Shown here: piece after piece, positions 8,717-30,175 of the stretch
Layout of the letters: each line of letters starts with the position of its first letter
Position numbering within the stretch: position 1 is the stretch's first letter
Assembly: GCA_002733105.1 (NCBI GenBank)
Contig: NVUI01000006.1
Coordinates: 74,317 to 112,535 of the forward strand
Source of the DNA: Methylophaga sp.
GTDB taxonomy: Bacteria > Pseudomonadota > Gammaproteobacteria > Nitrosococcales > Methylophagaceae
DNA length: 38,219 bases
Direction: 5' to 3'
Made by a program: the position numbers and the translations under genes
Notes under the pieces: model-generated
The model's input: the letters and a program-made list of their open reading frames with translations, nothing else
Told to the model about the DNA's origin: nothing
Databases searched by the model: none

Positions 8717-10513
8717 ATGGATCATATCCGTAATTTTTCTATCATAGCCCATATTGACCATGGGAAATCAACGATAGCCGATCGTTTTATCCAAGTATGT
8801 GGTGGCTTAACAGAGCGTGAAATGTCTTCGCAAGTACTTGATTCAATGGATATTGAAAAAGAGCGTGGCATCACCATTAAAGCACAATGTGTTTCACTGG
8901 ACTATAAAGCACGTAATGGTGAAGTTTATCATTTAAATTTTATTGATACGCCTGGCCATGTTGATTTTTCATATGAAGTCTCAAGGTCATTAGCGGCATG
9001 TGATGGTGCACTCCTTGTTGTGGATGCCGCACAAGGGGTCGAAGCACAAAGTGTTGCTAACTGCTATACCGCTATTGATCTTGGTTTAGAGGTGTTGCCA
9101 GTACTCAATAAAATCGACTTGCCATCAGCTGAACCAGAACGAGTCGCTCAGGAAATTGAAGATATTATTGGTGTCGATGCATTGGATGCTGTGCAATGCA
9201 GTGCTAAAACAGGATTAGGAATAGAAGATTTATTAGAAGCTCTAGTGGAACGGGTGCCTGCACCAATAGGAGATCCTGATGGTAAGTTACAAGCATTAAT
9301 TATTGATTCTTGGTTCGATAGTTATGTTGGTGTTATATCGCTTGTTAGGATTATGCAGGGTTCAATCAAGACACGAGATAAGATAAAAGTTATGTCGACG
9401 GGACGTGAATATCAAGTAGAGCAAGTAGGTGTTTTCACACCGAAGCGTACCCAGAAAGATACGCTTAATTGTGGTGAAGTAGGTTATGTTATTTCTGGTG
9501 TAAAGGATATTGATGGTGCCCCAGTCGGAGATACCTTAACGCATACACATCATGGTGCAACAGAAATGTTGCCTGGCTTTAAATCTATTACACCTCAGGT
9601 ATATGCCGGTTTATTTCCTGTTAGCTCCGATGATTTTGAAGCATTTCGTGACGCTTTAGGTAAATTACGACTTAATGATGCATCATTATTTTTTGAACCT
9701 GAAAACTCTCAAGCACTAGGTTTTGGCTTTCGTTGTGGGTTTCTCGGTCTATTGCATATGGAGATTATCCAAGAGCGTTTGGAGCGTGAATATAATCTAG
9801 ATTTAATCACTACTGCACCAACGGTAGTCTTTGAGGTGTTAACGGCTAAAGGAGATGTTGTAAACATCGAGAATCCGGCGTTATTACCTGATGCAGGTAC
9901 GGTTGAAGAAATACGTGAACCCATCGTAATTGCCGATATTCTAGTGCCACAAGAACATGTAGGTTCAGTGATTTCATTATGTATAGAAAAACGTGGTGTA
10001 CAAAAATCTATGCAATATATGGGCAAGCAAGTTGCACTGAGTTATGAGTTGCCAATGAATGAGGTGGTGATTGATTTCTTTGATCGTATCAAATCTGTCA
10101 GCCGAGGTTATGCTTCTTTAGACTATCATTTTACTCATTTTCAGGTAGCAGATTTAGTGAAATTAGATGTGTTGATCAATGGGGAAAGAGTGGATGCTTT
10201 GTCAATGATTGTACATCGCGATCATAGTCTGTCTCGTGGCCGAGATTTAGTTGAAAAAATGAAAGAACTTATTCCAAGACAAATGTTTGATATTGCTATT
10301 CAAGCAGCTATTGGTGGTCACATTATTTCACGATCAACTGTTAAAGCGATGCGAAAAAATGTCTTAGCCAAATGTTATGGTGGCGATGTATCTCGGAAAC
10401 GCAAACTACTTGAAAAACAAAAGAAAGGTAAAAAGCGGATGAAATCAATTGGTAAAGTTGATGTGCCGCAAGAAGCCTTTTTAGCCGTCTTACAATTATC
10501 GAAAAAATCATAG
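8717..10513 (+). CDS. lepA: Elongation factor 4 (back-translocating GTPase LepA)
   Basis: 598 residues (E. coli LepA 599). GTPase motifs: [10 protein letters not shown] (G1), ERGITIKAQ (G2 region), DTPGHVDF (G3), NKIDLPSA (G4) and SAKTG (G5). The LepA-specific C-terminal domain ends in [20 protein letters not shown]. The protein acts on ribosomes during initiation or stalled elongation. ATG 8717 is chosen over the in-frame GTG at 8702 because [19 protein letters not shown] aligns with the universal N-terminus. AGAAGGTGA upstream is the likely ribosome binding site. lepB follows after 16 bases. Confidence 0.97.
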
Positions 10514-10529
10514 AAAGGATATTTATAAC

Positions 10530-11291
10530 GTGAGTTTTCCAGCAATAATGGTGACCTTGGCAATCGTAACAGGGATAATTTGGTTGATAGATAGTCTCTT
10601 CTGGGCAGGGCAGAGAGTCAAAGAGCAAAAAGAACCGCTGGTTGTTGAGTATGCGCGTTCCTTTTTTCCGATAATTTTTGTGGTACTTATCATTCGTTCA
10701 TTTATGATTGAGCCATTTAGGATCCCTTCAGCTTCAATGCTGCCGACCTTACATATTGGTGATTTTATTTTGGTGAATAAATTTGCCTATGGTGTACGGC
10801 TGCCAGTGATTAACACCAAGATATTTGAAGTGGGTAAACCTCAACGTGGTGATGTGTTTGTATTTCGTTATCCTCAAAACCCCAATATTGATTATATCAA
10901 GCGTGTTGTTGGGCTACCTGGCGACAAGGTAGGGTACTTCAATAAAACAATCTATATTAACGGTAAAGAAATTGTTAGAAATATTAAACCAAAAGATATC
11001 AGCTTATTAGGCATTGTTCCTACCCGCACCGTTTTGATGATAGAGAATTTAGGTGATCATGAGCATGAGCTGCTCATTGATCCTGAACGGCCATCAAAAG
11101 AAGGGGAAGTTATTATTCCTGAAGGACATTATTTTGCGATGGGTGATAATCGTGATAATAGTAATGATAGTCGTTATTGGGGTACAGTGCCTGAAGAAAA
11201 CTTAGTAGGTAAGGCATTTTTTGTCTGGATGAGTTGGAGCTGGGATGAAGGTGGTATTGTTTGGCAACGTTTAGGTAATTCTATAAATTAA
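10530..11291 (+). CDS. lepB: Signal peptidase I
   Basis: 253 residues beginning at GTG 10530, preceded by GAAAGGAT. Two N-terminal membrane segments (about residues 4-24 and 45-60) are followed by the periplasmic catalytic domain. The Ser/Lys dyad is S69 (IPSASMLPTL) and K124 (DYIKRVVGLPGD). Box E, GHYFAMGDNRDNSNDSRYWG, is present. It removes signal peptides from exported preproteins such as RseB and MucD. The lepA-lepB-rnc-era-recO order is the classic gammaproteobacterial operon. Confidence 0.96.
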   Translation: MSFPAIMVTLAIVTGIIWLIDSLFWAGQRVKEQKEPLVVEYARSFFPIIFVVLIIRSFMIEPFRIPSASMLPTLHIGDFILVNKFAYGVRLPVINTKIFEVGKPQRGDVFVFRYPQNPNIDYIKRVVGLPGDKVGYFNKTIYINGKEIVRNIKPKDISLLGIVPTRTVLMIENLGDHEHELLIDPERPSKEGEVIIPEGHYFAMGDNRDNSNDSRYWGTVPEENLVGKAFFVWMSWSWDEGGIVWQRLGNSIN

Positions 11292-20357: not shown

Positions 20358-20951
20358 ATGAAAAAAACGATACTTATATTAACTGCACTATTATTTTCAG
20401 TGCAAGCACAAGCTGCTTTAGTGGGAACTTTAGGTGGGAAAATTATTGGCGCAGTAAGTATTCAAGAAGATAGCCCAACCAATAGACGTCAACAAGGCTT
20501 TGATGAACAACAAGGTGTTCTCTTGACTAAAATGATCAAAGTTGACGGTGGTTTTATCGCTAAAGGGACAAAGGTTGATAGTCATATTATCTTTTTTAAT
20601 ACTAAAGGTAATAAATACGGAGCTAGTAAAGCGTTATGGAAATTTGATGGTCAGATTTTAGGTGTTATGTCAGACAAAAAAGGCCGGCTGATGAATAAGA
20701 CAAATGACATATTTGCTGCATTTGATGATTATTTCACCACAGGGAAAAGTCTTCCTTTTAATGCCGCAGGTATGGAAGGTAGAGATGGATATTTTATTAA
20801 TGCGATGGTATTAGGCGTATTTATGGAAGTGACTGAGCCAGGCGACTGGATCCGTGTAATTACGGCTTCGGCGGTTCCTATTCCTGCTGCAATTTGGTTG
20901 TTTGGCTCGGCTCTGCTTGGTTTTGTGGGTATGCGCAGACGATCTAAATAA
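20358..20951 (+). CDS. VPLPA-CTERM sorting domain-containing secreted protein
   Basis: 197 residues with a signal peptide (KTILILTALLFSVQAQA, cut after A19). A globular exported part of unknown fold includes two GG/G-rich turns and a conserved-looking FDDYFTTGKSLPFNAAGMEGRDGYF segment (key residues within 123-150). The tail is a clear exosortase sorting signal: VPIPAAIWLFGSALLGFVG (about residues 174-192) and then basic MRRRSK. In the family such proteins are cut and anchored or released by an exosortase (XrtA-type), often in step with exopolysaccharide secretion. No exosortase gene is in the window. The long leader with the riboswitch upstream and its own terminator make this a single-gene transcript. 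Confidence 0.88.
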   Translation: MKKTILILTALLFSVQAQAALVGTLGGKIIGAVSIQEDSPTNRRQQGFDEQQGVLLTKMIKVDGGFIAKGTKVDSHIIFFNTKGNKYGASKALWKFDGQILGVMSDKKGRLMNKTNDIFAAFDDYFTTGKSLPFNAAGMEGRDGYFINAMVLGVFMEVTEPGDWIRVITASAVPIPAAIWLFGSALLGFVGMRRRSK

Positions 20952-25127: not shown

Positions 25128-25841
25128 TTATTCAAAATAATAGAGTGAAATAGTCACTCGACGATCATAAAATAATTCTTCACCCCAAGAAGTATTGTTA
25201 TAGGCATTATGTTCACCATAATTAGTGGTTAATAGCTGCTCTTGTTTAGTGCCTGCTTCAGTGAGGTAGTCGGTGACAATATCGAGACGTTGTTTGGCTA
25301 ATAGACAATTTTCATCTTTGGTGCCACGCCAATCACTATGTGCTTCGATATTAGCTTGTAAAGTGGGGTAATGTTGCAGTAGTTGCACTAACTTTTCTAA
25401 TCCTTGTTGTGCCTGTGGGTGGAGAGTCGATTCCTTAGTTGGAAAATAAATGTCCAATTGATAACCATCAGCAAACTTGGTTAAATTAACAATATGCTGT
25501 TGTTCAATATTAGTTTGTGTTGATTCGAGTTGTTGCACAGATTGTTTTGATTGAGATAATGCTGACATAAGTTGGCTCAACTCAGTCTCAAGAACCGTGA
25601 TAGATTGTTGTTGTTCATCAATAGTGTTGGCTTGAGTTTGGTGATGCCCAGTCATAACACCAAGAGAGCCGCCAATAATGGCACCCAGTGGCCCGGCAGC
25701 AATAGTGCCAGCAAGAAGGCCTATTCCACCAGCCGTTACTTCATGATGATTATCAGTAGGGGGTGGTTGATAGAAGTTTTCAGCCATCACTACTGGACTG
25801 GTAGATATTAAAATAGCCAACGATAGTATTTTTTTATTCAT
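25128..25841 (-). CDS. pdsO: Sortase-associated OmpA-like protein PdsO
   Basis: 237 residues. Signal peptide (ILSLAILISTSPVVMA, cut after A20), then a Gly/Ala-rich segment (GIGLLAGTIAAGPLGAIIGGSLGVMTG, residues within 39-65) like a glycine-zipper membrane helix, a short coiled coil rich in Gln (about 70-115), and a C-terminal OmpA peptidoglycan-binding domain (IEAHSDWRGTKDENCLLAKQRLDIV; FYDRRVTISL ending). This combination is that of PdsO, a companion of the proteobacterial dedicated sortase system, and it diverges from genes for PdsR and PdsS, its usual partners. The usual OmpA 'NxxLSxxRA' pattern is altered to NCLLAKQRL. Role in the system is undefined. Confidence 0.8.
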   Translation of the reverse strand: MNKKILSLAILISTSPVVMAENFYQPPPTDNHHEVTAGGIGLLAGTIAAGPLGAIIGGSLGVMTGHHQTQANTIDEQQQSITVLETELSQLMSALSQSKQSVQQLESTQTNIEQQHIVNLTKFADGYQLDIYFPTKESTLHPQAQQGLEKLVQLLQHYPTLQANIEAHSDWRGTKDENCLLAKQRLDIVTDYLTEAGTKQEQLLTTNYGEHNAYNNTSWGEELFYDRRVTISLYYFE

Positions 25842-25869
25842 AATATTCTCCTTAAGAATTGATTCAGCG

Positions 25870-25883
25870 AGTCATCCGTGACT
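25870..25883. promoter_or_regulatory. Dyad between pdsO and pdsR
   Basis: AGTCA-TCCG-TGACT, extendable by a G-T and a C-G pair, lies 29 bases before the pdsO start and about 120 bases before pdsR. Its place in the divergent gap makes it a candidate operator for PdsR or another regulator. No second copy is obvious in the gap. Confidence 0.3.
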
Positions 25884-26005
25884 TGAGAAATTCCATTTGT
25901 GCGCCGAGTGGTGACTATTAAAACCGATGCTGATGGCATTAAAAGGTCGCGATTGAGGCAATGTAGCGATAGAATGTGGCAACAATAGGGCAAGAGAGAA
26001 AAGTA

Positions 26006-26707
26006 ATGGGACGTAGAATTGCAATAGTAGAAGATGAGCCGGCAATCAGAGATAACTATGCTGAAGCATTAATACAGCAAGGATATGAAGTAACGACTTT
26101 TGCTGATCGCCAGACAGCCTATGCTGCTTTCCAACAGCGCTTACCAGAATTAGCTATTATTGATATTGGCCTTGCAGATGAACCTGAAGGGGGCTTTGAT
26201 TTGTGCCGTGATCTTCGAGCACTATCAACCGCCATCCCCATTATTTTTTTGACAGCACGAGATAGTGAATTAGATACAGTGTCTGGTTTTAGGTTGGGTG
26301 CCGATGACTACCTCACCAAAGATATAGGCTTATCACATTTGCAAGCGAGAATTGCTGCATTATTTCGTCGTTTAGATTTGATGAAAACCCCTGTGGTAGC
26401 AGAGGATTTGATTACGCAAGGTGAGTTAGTATTGGATCGTGATCGAATGCTGGTCACTTATGAAAACAAAGCTGTTGCCTTGACGGTGACAGAGTTTTGG
26501 TTAATCCATTCCTTAGTGCATTTTGTAGGTCATGTTAAAACCCGTGAGCAGTTAATGCAGGCAGCTAATATTTATGTTGATGAAGATACCATTAGCTCAC
26601 ATATTAAACGTATCCGTAAAAAATTCCAGCTAGTGAGTCGTGACTTTTCTGCGATTGAGACGGTTTATGGCCTTGGTTATCGTTGGATGGAATCACAGTC
26701 TAAATAA
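26006..26707 (+). CDS. pdsR: Response regulator of the dedicated sortase system (PdsR)
   Basis: 233 residues from ATG 26006 (a GTG ten codons upstream is the alternative). OmpR/PhoB-type: receiver with E9-D10, phosphoacceptor D53 (LAIIDIGLADEPEGG), T/S-switch ITFLTARD-like FLTARDSELDT, and conserved K in DYLTKDIGLSHLQARIAALFRR. A winged-helix DNA-binding domain covers about residues 130-230 (VALTVTEFWLIHSLV; DEDTISSHIKRIRKKFQ; YGLGYRW). Followed with a one-base TAATG overlap by the kinase gene. Placement beside PdsO and a Pds-type kinase supports the subfamily call. GAGAG about 10 bases before the start is a modest ribosome binding site. Confidence 0.85.
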   Translation: MGRRIAIVEDEPAIRDNYAEALIQQGYEVTTFADRQTAYAAFQQRLPELAIIDIGLADEPEGGFDLCRDLRALSTAIPIIFLTARDSELDTVSGFRLGADDYLTKDIGLSHLQARIAALFRRLDLMKTPVVAEDLITQGELVLDRDRMLVTYENKAVALTVTEFWLIHSLVHFVGHVKTREQLMQAANIYVDEDTISSHIKRIRKKFQLVSRDFSAIETVYGLGYRWMESQSK

Positions 26708-28824
26708 TGGCACTGTGGCCAAAAAGCGGATTTAAATTACGCAGTAAACTATTATTGCTTTCCTTAGTCTTTGTCTTACTTCCCTGGTTAGGTGTCAGTT
26801 ATATTCAAGCAATTGAAGATTTGTTACAGCAGGAACAGGAAAAATCAATATCAACCATTGCACAGGCTGCAGCAATGTTAGTTGAGCAGCAGCCAGATAT
26901 TTTTACACAGCGGATGAATTTATTAGCAACAAATTCGTCTACAAAAAAAATAGCTGTGACTAGCATTACAACACCCATTTTTATTGACGGTTATGATGAA
27001 GAATGGCGACCATATGCTTCGCTTTTACAATATTTCCCTATTGAGGATCAGCATAATCGGGTTAGATTAATTGATCCTCAGGATGTATCGGCCCGTTATA
27101 TTTTGGCACAGCAGAATGATACTTTAGCGATATTACTTGATGTAGTTGATGACAAGGTAATATTCAGAGACCCGAGCCAGCATCAACGTCATGGAGGCGA
27201 TGCCATTATAGTGGCGTTGAAGGATCAGCAGCAGCGCGTTCATCGCTATATCTTAAGTGCTAGTGCACCAGGCAACATCAATGTATATGAATATATAGGT
27301 AGTTATTTAGATCCAGTAGTGATCAAGCGCCAATCATTAATCAAAGCTGCTTGGCAGATATCTTCATATGGGTATCGTATTGAATTAACTATTCCCGATT
27401 CAATGCTGACTGATGTGATGGCACTCGCGGTAATAGACATTGATAATGATAATACAGCGGTACAGGTGATAGGGTTAGGAGATGTCCGTGATAGTGATTT
27501 ATTTAGTTATTTATTGTTGCCATCATTTAAGCTGACATCGGTACTTTCTACTATGGCAAAAGATGGAGTGAGAATATGGTTGGTCGATAATCAGACAAAT
27601 AATATAGCTGCTGCTGGTTTAGGTGATGTTGTCATTGCAGCCCCCAAGTTGAATTCATTAGCGGATTTGTTTTATGGCTTATTTTTAACGCAAGCACTGT
27701 CTGATGATGAGTCGTTATCACATGAACAAGCGGTACTATCAGGGAGAGCAGTTCAAGCTGCATTAGAGGGTAAGGCACAAGCAGAGCGCCGAAAAACGAG
27801 CTCTGAAGGGCATACGATAATTGTAGCAGCTCAGCCTGTTTTTGTTGATGGGAAAATAGTTGGGGCGATTGTTGTTGAGAAAAATACTAATAGCATATTA
27901 GCTTTGCAAAATAAGGCAGTGAAAACACTATTAAATACCACCTTATTTGTTGTGGCTATTGTGATGATTGTTTTGCTTGGTTTTGCTGGTCGGCTATCTT
28001 TTCGGATTGGTAGATTAAATCGTGATGTTGCTGATGCTGTTAATTACGATGGTCGTGTGACAGGGCAATTTTCCCATCGGGTTGAATCCGATGAGTTAGG
28101 TGAGTTAAGGCAAAGTTTTGGGTTATTGTTTGAAAGATTGGGGCATTATAATCACTACTTAGAAGCCTTGGCATCACGACTAGCCCATGAATTGCGTACT
28201 CCTATTGCGGTGATTAAAACCTCATTGGAGCATATTCAACAGCATACGAATGATGCTGGGCTGCGATATATTGAAAGAGCGCGTTTAGGTAGTGATCGCC
28301 TAAATGCTGTAGTTGCCAGAATGAGTGAAGCGAGTCAGCTTGAACAAACAGTTAATAATGCTGATTTTGAAGTATTTGATTTTAACAAGTTACTAGTGGA
28401 TGTCATCCCGATGTACCAGGATATTTATGCTGATGTTGAACTTGAGTACCATTCAAGCGACATTATTGTCATGCTTGATGGGGCGCAGGATTTACTGGTA
28501 CAAATGTTGGATAAGTTGGTCAGTAATGCGGTTGATTTCCATCAAGTTAATACGCCGATTTTGATCAGTTTGGAACAGCGACAACATACTTGCTGCTTGA
28601 TAGTGAAAAACACAGGTGAGATGTTGCCAATTGAAATAGAAATGCAATTATTTCAACCGATGGTATCTATGCGTAAAGTCGCGGTTAAATCAGCCATTCC
28701 ACATTTAGGTTTAGGTTTGTATATTGTCAAATTGATAGTGGAAATACACCACGGTAACGTAGTCGCACAAAATTGGCAGAATGGAGTAGAGTTTTTAGTA
28801 GAACTGCCGATAAAAAGGGCATAA
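26707..28824 (+). CDS. pdsS: Sensor histidine kinase of the dedicated sortase system (PdsS)
   Basis: 705 residues. An N-terminal membrane helix (about residues 13-32) is followed by a large periplasmic sensor part of roughly 360 residues that contains IFIDGYDEEWRPY and an alternating beta region resembling a carbohydrate-binding (CBM9-like) fold, as in the family. A second membrane helix lies at about 408-428 (LNTTLFVVAIVMIVLLGFAG), then a HAMP-like linker, phosphoacceptor H494 (SRLAHELRTPIAVIKTSLEHI), an N box variant LVSNAVDFHQ and a G box GLGLYIVKLIVEIHHG. Known members pair with PdsR and a marine-type sortase. No sortase or sortase substrate is next to this one. Confidence 0.85.
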   Translation: MALWPKSGFKLRSKLLLLSLVFVLLPWLGVSYIQAIEDLLQQEQEKSISTIAQAAAMLVEQQPDIFTQRMNLLATNSSTKKIAVTSITTPIFIDGYDEEWRPYASLLQYFPIEDQHNRVRLIDPQDVSARYILAQQNDTLAILLDVVDDKVIFRDPSQHQRHGGDAIIVALKDQQQRVHRYILSASAPGNINVYEYIGSYLDPVVIKRQSLIKAAWQISSYGYRIELTIPDSMLTDVMALAVIDIDNDNTAVQVIGLGDVRDSDLFSYLLLPSFKLTSVLSTMAKDGVRIWLVDNQTNNIAAAGLGDVVIAAPKLNSLADLFYGLFLTQALSDDESLSHEQAVLSGRAVQAALEGKAQAERRKTSSEGHTIIVAAQPVFVDGKIVGAIVVEKNTNSILALQNKAVKTLLNTTLFVVAIVMIVLLGFAGRLSFRIGRLNRDVADAVNYDGRVTGQFSHRVESDELGELRQSFGLLFERLGHYNHYLEALASRLAHELRTPIAVIKTSLEHIQQHTNDAGLRYIERARLGSDRLNAVVARMSEASQLEQTVNNADFEVFDFNKLLVDVIPMYQDIYADVELEYHSSDIIVMLDGAQDLLVQMLDKLVSNAVDFHQVNTPILISLEQRQHTCCLIVKNTGEMLPIEIEMQLFQPMVSMRKVAVKSAIPHLGLGLYIVKLIVEIHHGNVVAQNWQNGVEFLVELPIKRA

Positions 28825-28846: not shown

Positions 28847-29287
28847 ATGAAAAATACTATATTACGCTACAAAAACTTACTTTGCTTATGTCTGATCCTT
28901 GTTTGGCCATCAGCTAATGCTTTAACGATGATTCCTGTTCCAGCTGAACCTATTTATTTTGAACCTCCTGTGGTGGAAGCCACAAAAGAGATAGCGCAAC
29001 AGAGTTGTGTTGAGATAGATCATGCGATTCGATACTTACACCCATATAAATATAGTTACAAAGCAGATTTTTACCAAGATGATGCTAATAAAATTGCTAC
29101 AGCCTTAATAGTGTTTGATTCTATTCCAATTCTTGAGTCTATCCCAATTATTAATGGATGGTATGGGTTTGCTTATTTGGGATATTCATCATTAATTGAA
29201 GAAAAAGAGCAGCGTCGTGTTTTGCAAGTAGAGCAGCAGATTGCCATGTTGCAGCAAATAAAAGCAGAAAAACATTGTTTTGAATAA
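28847..29287 (+). CDS. Small secreted protein of unknown function
   Basis: 146 residues. A signal peptide (LLCLCLILVWPSANA, cut after A25 or so) leads into a mature part of about 120 residues with two cysteines, one near residue 54 (QQSCVEIDHAIRYL) and one near the end (KAEKHCFE), possibly forming a disulfide. The second half has a hydrophobic stretch (PIINGWYGFAYLGYSSLI) and a helix ending ...RRVLQVEQQIAMLQQIKAEKHC. The 'Y-S-Y-K-x-x-F-Y-x-D' and '+CFE' ends resemble a scattered gammaproteobacterial secreted family, but I know no function. It starts 22 bases after pdsS, so it may be in the same transcript. Confidence 0.75.
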   Translation: MKNTILRYKNLLCLCLILVWPSANALTMIPVPAEPIYFEPPVVEATKEIAQQSCVEIDHAIRYLHPYKYSYKADFYQDDANKIATALIVFDSIPILESIPIINGWYGFAYLGYSSLIEEKEQRRVLQVEQQIAMLQQIKAEKHCFE

Positions 29288-29311
29288 GGGGTAAAAAATA
29301 CTATAAAAGCC

Positions 29312-29341
29312 TTGTGAATTACTCTCAAACTCATGTACTAT
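29312..29341 (+). promoter_or_regulatory. Candidate sigma-70 promoter of the KWYEAN gene
   Basis: TTGTGA (29312-29317) and TACTAT (29336-29341) are spaced by 18 bases, with the start codon 33 bases after the -10 box. It would let the repeat gene be expressed apart from the pds genes. The match is ordinary and unproven. Confidence 0.35.
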
Positions 29342-29374
29342 CGAAGTAATGAATTATCCAAGAGGTAACGAAGC

Positions 29375-30175
29375 ATGACTAGCACAATGGATATTAAGGC
29401 GAAGTGGTACGAAGCGAATTTAAAGATCGCAAGAGAAAGCCGTAGTAAGTGGTATGAGGCTAATAAAAAACCGGCTAAAGTGACCGGGACACCTTGGTAT
29501 GAGGCGAGTAGTAAGACTACAGATACTTCAGGAACGCCTTGGTACGAAGCCAATCTTATCGAACATTTAGAGACCAAGAAAAAGTGGTATGAAGCCAATC
29601 TGAAATTAGCTGTGGCTTCTGTTAGGGCAGAACGTACAAAATGGTATGAAGCTAATAAAAACACCACTGTAGCAGTACATCATGGCCGACCATGGTATGA
29701 AGCTAACGAGGATAAATACAACGAAACTAAGAAAAAATGGTACAAGGCTAACTTAGAAGCGGCTAGAGCAAACCAAAAAAAATGGTATGAAGCTAATAAA
29801 TCAAATCAAGCAACAGATAAACACTGGTATGAATTGAGTGATGAAAAATATTCAGACACTGTTAAAGCATGGTTTGAAGGCAATCTGGCAATAGCCAGAA
29901 AGACTCAGAAGAAGAAATGGTATGAAGCTAATATTGGTATTGACCCTCATGCTGCGGCTAAGAAAAAATGGTACGAAGCCAATTTAGCTTTGGTTAGGGA
30001 GCAAGATCAAGGCACTCATAAGAAATGGTATAAAGCGAATGAGGAGCCTGTAGACCCTAATCATAAGAAGTGGTATGAAGCTAATTTGGAACAACATTTT
30101 GATGCTAAAAAGAAATGGTATGAAGCCAATTTGAAAGCGGCTGTTGCTTCGGTTAGAGCTGATCGGGACAAATAA
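29375..30175 (+). CDS. KWYEAN-repeat protein of unknown function
   Basis: 266 residues, almost entirely repeats. Sixteen units share a core (K/P)-W-Y-E-A-N. The only tryptophans are those of the repeats, at residues 11, 26, 41, 56, 71, 90, 107, 122, 137, 151, 166, 182, 199, 218, 233 and 248, so the spacing is usually 15 and ranges 14-19. There is no signal peptide, no membrane helix and no cysteine; lysine is abundant. Variants are WYEAS (unit 3), WYKAN (8, 14), WYELS (10) and WFEGN (11). Linkers are partly helical (ANLKIARES, ANLEAARANQ), partly broken by G-T-P. AGAGG nine bases before ATG 29375 is a good ribosome binding site. Core codons vary silently (tat/tac, gaa/gag, gct/gcc/gcg), so the protein, not the DNA, is being conserved. 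It lies after pdsR-pdsS. I recognise no family; a multi-core peptide precursor, a scaffold or a binding array are all possible. Confidence 0.88.
   Translation: MTSTMDIKAKWYEANLKIARESRSKWYEANKKPAKVTGTPWYEASSKTTDTSGTPWYEANLIEHLETKKKWYEANLKLAVASVRAERTKWYEANKNTTVAVHHGRPWYEANEDKYNETKKKWYKANLEAARANQKKWYEANKSNQATDKHWYELSDEKYSDTVKAWFEGNLAIARKTQKKKWYEANIGIDPHAAAKKKWYEANLALVREQDQGTHKKWYKANEEPVDPNHKKWYEANLEQHFDAKKKWYEANLKAAVASVRADRDK
29402..30172 (+). repeat. 16 in-frame 45-base-type repeats encoding K-W-Y-E-A-N
   Basis: The DNA repeat has a 12-18 base conserved core built on tgg-tat-gaa-gct-aat, recurring mostly every 45 bases. Higher-order copies are visible in protein: residues 61-89 and 238-266 agree at 21 of 29 positions (both contain K-K-K-W-Y-E-A-N-L-K then A-V-A-S-V-R-A), and residues 112-136 resemble 156-180 at 12 of 25. 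This indicates growth by duplicating blocks of two units, followed by divergence. Confidence 0.9.

Follow-up and report, generated by a model that had tools for sequence, protein, structure and literature searches.

The gene at 29375..30175 on the forward strand of the window, by which we mean the whole stretch of 38,219 nucleotides of Methylophaga sp. DNA that was analyzed, encodes a 266-residue protein of sixteen tryptophan-anchored units, and units of a similar kind recur in phage proteins of the endonuclease VII and HNH type. We read the repeat protein as a cytosolic, basic, helical rod of phage-kind units that would bind nucleic acid in an architectural role, and we put the probability of this reading at about 0.4. 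That the protein is mainly a helical rod of 15-residue aromatic-x3-Asn units is rather likely, and binding of nucleic acid by this rod, argued by analogy, is given somewhat less than an even chance. Nucleic acid binding is nevertheless the likeliest function, because the phage arms lie inside nuclease-type proteins and because all of the aligned orthologs are basic, and the resemblance of the unit to a repeat of phage DNA-cutting enzymes makes a helical rod with many binding sites probable. An orphan gene that is nearly universal in the Methylophaga family is in this way tied to an unnamed repeat recurring in phage nuclease proteins.

The open reading frame starts with the ATG at 29375 and stops at 30173-30175, and its product has a pI of 9.45 and a net charge of +14. 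As the first-pass annotation stated, the frame contains sixteen tryptophans (6% of the residues, 16/266) and no cysteine, and the tryptophans are mostly 15 residues apart: the successive gaps are 15, 15, 15, 15, 19, 17, 15, 15, 14, 15, 16, 17, 19, 15 and 15, all fifteen therefore within 14-19 residues and nine of them exactly 15, compared with a maximum of four and a mean of 0.38 in 20,000 shuffles. All sixteen units follow the consensus [KPHA]W[YF][EK][AGL][NS]. A strictly kept (K/P)-W-Y-E-A-N core, as first described, is accurate for much of the array, with 11 of 16 cores reading exactly WYEAN and 13 of 16 WY[EK]AN, but the motif is looser elsewhere (WYEAS, WYELS and WFEGN), and the residue preceding W is K in eleven units, P in three, H in one and A in one. 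The first core begins at residue 10, and the N-terminus has no leader-like part. By eye, neither the window protein nor the orthologs inspected show a signal peptide, which agrees with the cytosolic appearance noted earlier; the protein is probably cytosolic.

An RBS-like AGAGG, read from the sequence, lies at 29361..29365 on the forward strand, 5' of the ATG, and AGAGG or GAGG before the ATG was also found in many orthologs. Further upstream, at 29311..29342 on the same strand and 32 nt before the ATG, stands a conserved promoter-like element, CTTGT-N18-TGTACTATC. The looser form TTG(T/A)-spacer-(T/G)GTANTAT, a pattern composed after the upstream alignment had been viewed, stands 30-39 nt 5' of the start codon in 40 of the 42 regions considered (a 43rd, of length 0, was left out) and in at most two in shuffles. 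The strict form CTTGT-N18-TGTANTATC has 24 matches in 22 of the 57 family genomes, 21 of them directly 5' of the repeat gene, while a reversed control occurred twice. Since the strict matches are mostly at the repeat gene, the element looks gene-specific rather than the mark of a regulon. Judged by its sequence it would be a promoter of the sigma-70 type; it was absent from the output of a generic promoter scan. Codon usage was considered as a sign of high expression and set aside as uninformative: the repeat gene has a CAI of 0.715 and so falls short of its null expectation (z -1.9), and of the three reference genes two, fusA (0.694) and rpsL (0.715), did not stand out either. The proteome of M. 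thiooxydans has been published (PMC6548844).

Among the 95 genomes searched, the repeat gene was found in 53 of the 57 that belong to its own family, Methylophaga with its relatives, and the remaining 38 gave no match. The search across the order found it in 53 of 63 genomes, exclusively in the own family and in none of the six order-mates outside it, and the alignment search across the class matched 4 of 369 genomes, all from the own family. A scan of named genome contigs yielded 45 loci, whose titles read Methylophaga, Piscirickettsiaceae, or unclassified Gammaproteobacteria or Pseudomonadota. A DNA pattern for KWYEAN was found in 398 genomes of the phylum in the own genome only, plasmids searched with the window protein gave no match, and of 24 pattern matches obtained in IMG/VR with the repeat-gene alignment none was confirmed.

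The codons of the cores vary silently among units, and the view that selection keeps the peptide motif is borne out by dN/dS values of 0.01-0.09 in nine ortholog pairs (for one of the pairs, L032/L033, the value of 0.64 obtained ungapped became 0.074 after codon alignment). The repeat gene is under purifying selection. Broken frames in orthologs had been named in advance as an observation that would count against the motif at the protein level; the frame is intact in 43 of the 45 loci and split into two open pieces in the other two. The split genes lie at 10001-11237 of locus L044 (M. muralis Bur 1) and at 9312-10681 of locus L061 (one MAG), and may reflect either real decay or assembly errors.

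The 38 aligned orthologs (trimmed) contain 12-29 tryptophans and no cysteine, and every one is basic, with a net charge of +4 to +32 and a pI of 8.8-9.8. Within one protein the cores of different units are 67% identical and the spacers 13%. One explanation of this pattern, and the main rival to the rod, is a multivalent docking scaffold in which the K-W-Y-x-A-N cores are stickers for a client, a protein that the array would gather into clusters in the cytosol. It is consistent with a core conserved so far above its spacers, also in unit 3, whose stretch is modeled mostly as loop, with the differing number of tryptophans among species and with the composition of the 33 invariant alignment columns, 24 of which are W, Y, A or N. 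EPYC1 and PYCO1 are sticker-and-spacer condensate scaffolds, and such scaffolds share with the repeat protein the many short aromatic or basic cores and a basic character; the repeat protein differs from them in its mostly helical model and in spacers that are conserved unit by unit. This last property speaks against docking: the spacer of a given unit is 42.6% identical across orthologs, compared with 13.4% between different units (first 12 units). Moreover, 635 of the 786 W-W spacings in the orthologs are 14, 15 or 17 residues, and plain linkers would not need such spacing. We know of no gene for a client, and consider the docking scaffold possible but not likely. The far greater likeness of same-unit spacers between species than of different units indicates that the units were distinct before the family radiated, and the repeat consequently forms an architecture rather than a series of exchangeable peptides.

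The orthologs are also strongly hydrophilic, with GRAVY values of -1.1 to -1.5. This property, together with the lack of cysteine and the helix-prone repeats, would suit a stress protectant resembling LEA proteins or hydrophilins, that is, a hydrophilic, helix-prone protein rich in K, E, A and N, and cultured Methylophaga are marine or saline bacteria. A tryptophan content of 6% and a fixed aromatic core are unexpected in proteins of that kind, and we regard this explanation as improbable.

The helical part of the preferred reading comes from the AlphaFold2 model of the repeat protein (38 sequences), in which the main helices span residues 4-31, 56-99, 117-141, 161-177, 193-221 and 233-265, with short ones between. 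The longest, residues 56-99 (29540..29671, forward strand), contains three units (W56, W71 and W90), and the 10-residue blocks covering residues 61-90 have pLDDT values of 85-91. The core of unit 3 lies in a stretch modeled mostly as loop, and the amphipathic character of the main helices is weak (hydrophobic moment 0.13-0.38 at 100 degrees). The earlier suggestion of a helical array is thus supported as regards long helices, which make up most of the model, but not as regards their arrangement, because with a pLDDT of 71 and a pTM of 0.24 the model gives no overall fold. A fold search with it returned one match, which was meaningless. Right-handed coiled coils with 15-residue repeats occur in stalks of the YadA type, and a 15-residue period is likewise close to four helical turns; the repeat protein differs from these in its cytosolic appearance, its irregular spacings of 14, 17 and 19 with loops, and its single tryptophan per unit.

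No curated family accounts for the protein. The window protein had a best Pfam match with an E-value of 0.16, under the cut-off, and none to HNH at E <= 1; it had no match in NCBIfam, where the comparison covered this protein only, and sequences of solved structures gave nothing significant (best E 0.072 and 0.2). Among the 38 members Pfam matches were weak and sporadic (best E 1.6e-4, each family in at most five members) in a table of 19 families listed without cut-offs. HNH or endonuclease families are absent from the 19 Pfam and 7 PHROGs families listed for these members, none of the 38 matched an endonuclease VII or HNH phrog at E 0.01, and for the window protein phrog_7091 (HNH) reached only E 0.14. 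The statement that no family with this repeat is known holds for curated families, but phage proteins of the endonuclease VII/HNH type do carry a similar 15-residue unit. Neither repeat, WYEAN or phage, was found described in print in open-licence papers, where motif words are often missing from the text.

The window protein gave five weak matches to phage records (E 0.007-0.04). Gene 20 of the Chlorobiaceae phage CV-1-33 consists nearly entirely of tandem 15-residue units and has no Pfam match, while gp29 of the Streptomyces phage Samisti12 has CxxC motifs, then units, then a Pfam HNH domain. When the CV-1-33 array was used as a query, 39 of 50,697 phage records matched, twelve of them with a feature annotated as HNH endonuclease or endonuclease VII at the matched stretch, as did 13 of 72,556 plasmids. 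We compared twelve phage proteins, namely the two first leads and the annotated frames from ten of eleven further records (L094 being the exception). Among them the identity period of 15 ranks first in eight, second in three and fourth in MetMV, and eleven have at least one CxxC. Matches to phrog_1035, annotated as endonuclease VII, were found for ten of the twelve, and to an HNH phrog for L097; in these eleven the nuclease matches lie beyond the repeat. Pfam HNH is above the cut-off in Samisti12 only, with FoX2 just below. The unit stretch of the twelve proteins is matched by no Pfam family and is covered in part by PHROGs. CV-1-33 gene 20 (L086, 671-1285), which lacks an HNH domain, is the phage equivalent of an array that stands alone. 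The 15-residue units (L087, 881-1594, and L088-L097) are found in bacteriophages and also in the archaeal Methanosarcina virus MetMV.

The repeat protein shares with the phage K-[WY]-x3-N units the tandem period of 15, the aromatic anchor at position 0, Asn at +4 and a basic residue at -1, and further a small or aliphatic residue at +8 and R or K at +9. The WYEAN units differ in having Tyr and not Arg at +1, Ala and not Glu at +3, and Leu and not Pro or Lys at +5. Profiles built from 325 distinct WYEAN units and 47 distinct phage units (two of them visibly misplaced) score 14.3 at the matching register and at most 3.5 at the 14 other shifts, with a column-permutation p of 0.00075, or 0.010 when the Asn column is left out. 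Of the 897 tryptophans aligned by phmmer, 821 stand opposite W or Y of the phage query. The real scores of the CV-1-33 query have a median of 20.9, compared with -3.7 for shuffles in which W was kept, and 30 of 38 members beat all of these shuffles; for five other phage queries the real medians are 6.6-14.0, compared with -3.0 to -0.4, and the members beating every W-kept shuffle number 38, 34, 8, 18 and 20 of 38. The strength of the likeness varies with the phage query and is weak for two of the six (8 and 18 members), and for the Stickynote query one full shuffle (11.7) scored above the best real score (11.1).

Searched against the 57 family genomes, the CV-1-33 array matched 31 at E <= 0.001, with a best E-value of 4e-10 and with 45 of 46 matches being the repeat gene or contig-edge pieces of it, although these E-values are not independent, since this query, used in the phmmer alignments too, had been chosen for being the phage protein that the window protein matched best. 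None of 369 class genomes matched at E <= 1e-6, which says nothing on the frequency of such arrays, because this threshold also misses the repeat gene of the own genome (E 8e-4).

From these comparisons the WYEAN and phage arrays share a kind of unit, which may have arisen through either common descent or convergence. Convergence is conceivable because both sets are rich in K, E, N and W, and the lack of endonuclease VII or HNH phrog matches in the 38 members counts against a relation. The repeat protein also differs from the phage proteins in lacking both CxxC motifs and any match to a nuclease profile, and from the phage arrays in its spacing of 14-19 with proline/glycine loops and in its largely fixed chromosomal place. 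In the reading of the repeat protein as a nucleic-acid-binding rod, a phage-kind unit would have been multiplied to give 12-29 tryptophans, without the cysteine motif or a recognizable nuclease part, and the array would have become established as a gene carried by nearly all members of a single bacterial family. Its helices would expose K/R, W/Y and N on one side and bind nucleic acid along their length, a manner of binding that is probable also for the phage arms next to the nuclease part. The protein might then have an architectural role in association with the nucleoid or with RNA. Counting against this reading are the pTM of 0.24, the lack of a structural match, the lack of an HNH or endonuclease VII phrog in the 38 members, the query-dependent likeness to the phage arrays and the placement of some cores, as in unit 3, in modeled loops. 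The more specific proposal, that an arm of a phage-type nuclease was turned into a free-standing rod of 12-29 aromatic-Asn units coating or bridging nucleic acid, is in our opinion rather doubtful. If true, such a nuclease-arm-derived rod would be a new architectural kind of nucleoid- or RNA-associated protein, made of a unit without a Pfam family. Being almost nothing but units, the repeat protein is the simplest test object for the phage repeat, and the ligand of the WYEAN rod, once learned, would tell the role of the phage arms.

The conserved partner of the repeat gene is the gene immediately upstream, g28847 (28847..29287, forward strand), and not the pds genes. In the 45 loci the neighbors are g28847 (42), bamE (40), fur (39), recN (39), nadK (38), ndk (38) and carbonic anhydrase (37), several contigs stopping before the gene in question, and farther upstream a LonB/LonC-like protease (28), a PilZ protein (36) and COQ7 (36). 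This recurrence of neighbors indicates that the pair of the repeat gene and g28847 is ancient and mostly fixed in its chromosomal position. In the repeat-less loci of one family genome (G031) and two from the order (G057 and G059) the bamE-fur-recN-nadK side is retained, and carbonic anhydrase was not found in the 12 kb read there, a state that would fit loss of the repeat gene as well as its ancestral absence.

The product of g28847 has 146 residues, a signal-peptide-like start (by eye) and two invariant cysteines, C54 and C144, and is helical; its model has a pLDDT of 85 and a pTM of 0.62, and none of the 77 matches of a fold search reached E <= 0.001. The g28847 protein of the window has no Pfam or NCBIfam match, and 29 g28847 proteins gave weak Pfam matches only, each confined to a single member. 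Homologs are present in 51 of 57 family genomes and in none of 38 others. As far as searched, g28847 represents an orphan family of small, secreted-looking helical proteins restricted to its own bacterial family.

Both genes occur together in 51 of the 57 family genomes, the repeat gene alone in two, g28847 alone in none and neither in four. This pattern and the co-occurrence at 42 of 45 loci would be expected if the repeat protein were the cytosolic partner of g28847 in an envelope-linked, family-specific two-gene system. Such a partnership is unlikely, as the promoter-like element of the repeat gene stands between the two genes, the products appear (by eye) to belong to different compartments, and a 99% complete genome (G019) has the repeat gene and no g28847.

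The conserved neighborhood also bears on the proposal of a multi-core precursor of a modified peptide, for which a short repeated core with W, Y and E and the LonB/LonC-like protease may be cited. The observation that no modifying enzyme or protease adjoins the gene is true for the window, but has to be qualified for the other loci by this protease, whose gene in the own genome lies on another contig, outside the window. No modifying enzyme or peptide exporter was noticed among the conserved neighbors, of which not every cluster was family-searched, and the spacers are unit-specific and conserved. In RiPP precursors a leader precedes cores that are almost identical, and maturation enzymes are encoded close by, an arrangement that the repeat protein does not show, and we consider a precursor very improbable.

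The genes pdsO, pdsR and pdsS (25128-28824) are assigned to a proteobacterial dedicated sortase system, pdsR above the curated cut-off and pdsO and pdsS below it. A pds gene had been listed among possible shared neighbors, and a sortase link of the repeat gene was rejected: pdsS is near in 8 and pdsR and pdsO in 7 of the 45 loci, all of which have the repeat gene, although some contigs stop too soon to show these genes. Reading through the open reading frames of the window, without a sortase profile, revealed no sortase gene, and nothing on a 'proteobacterial dedicated sortase' was found in open-licence literature. Near the pds genes, at 20358-20951, lies a protein with a VPLPA-CTERM sorting signal above the curated cut-off, which suggests a second surface-sorting system.
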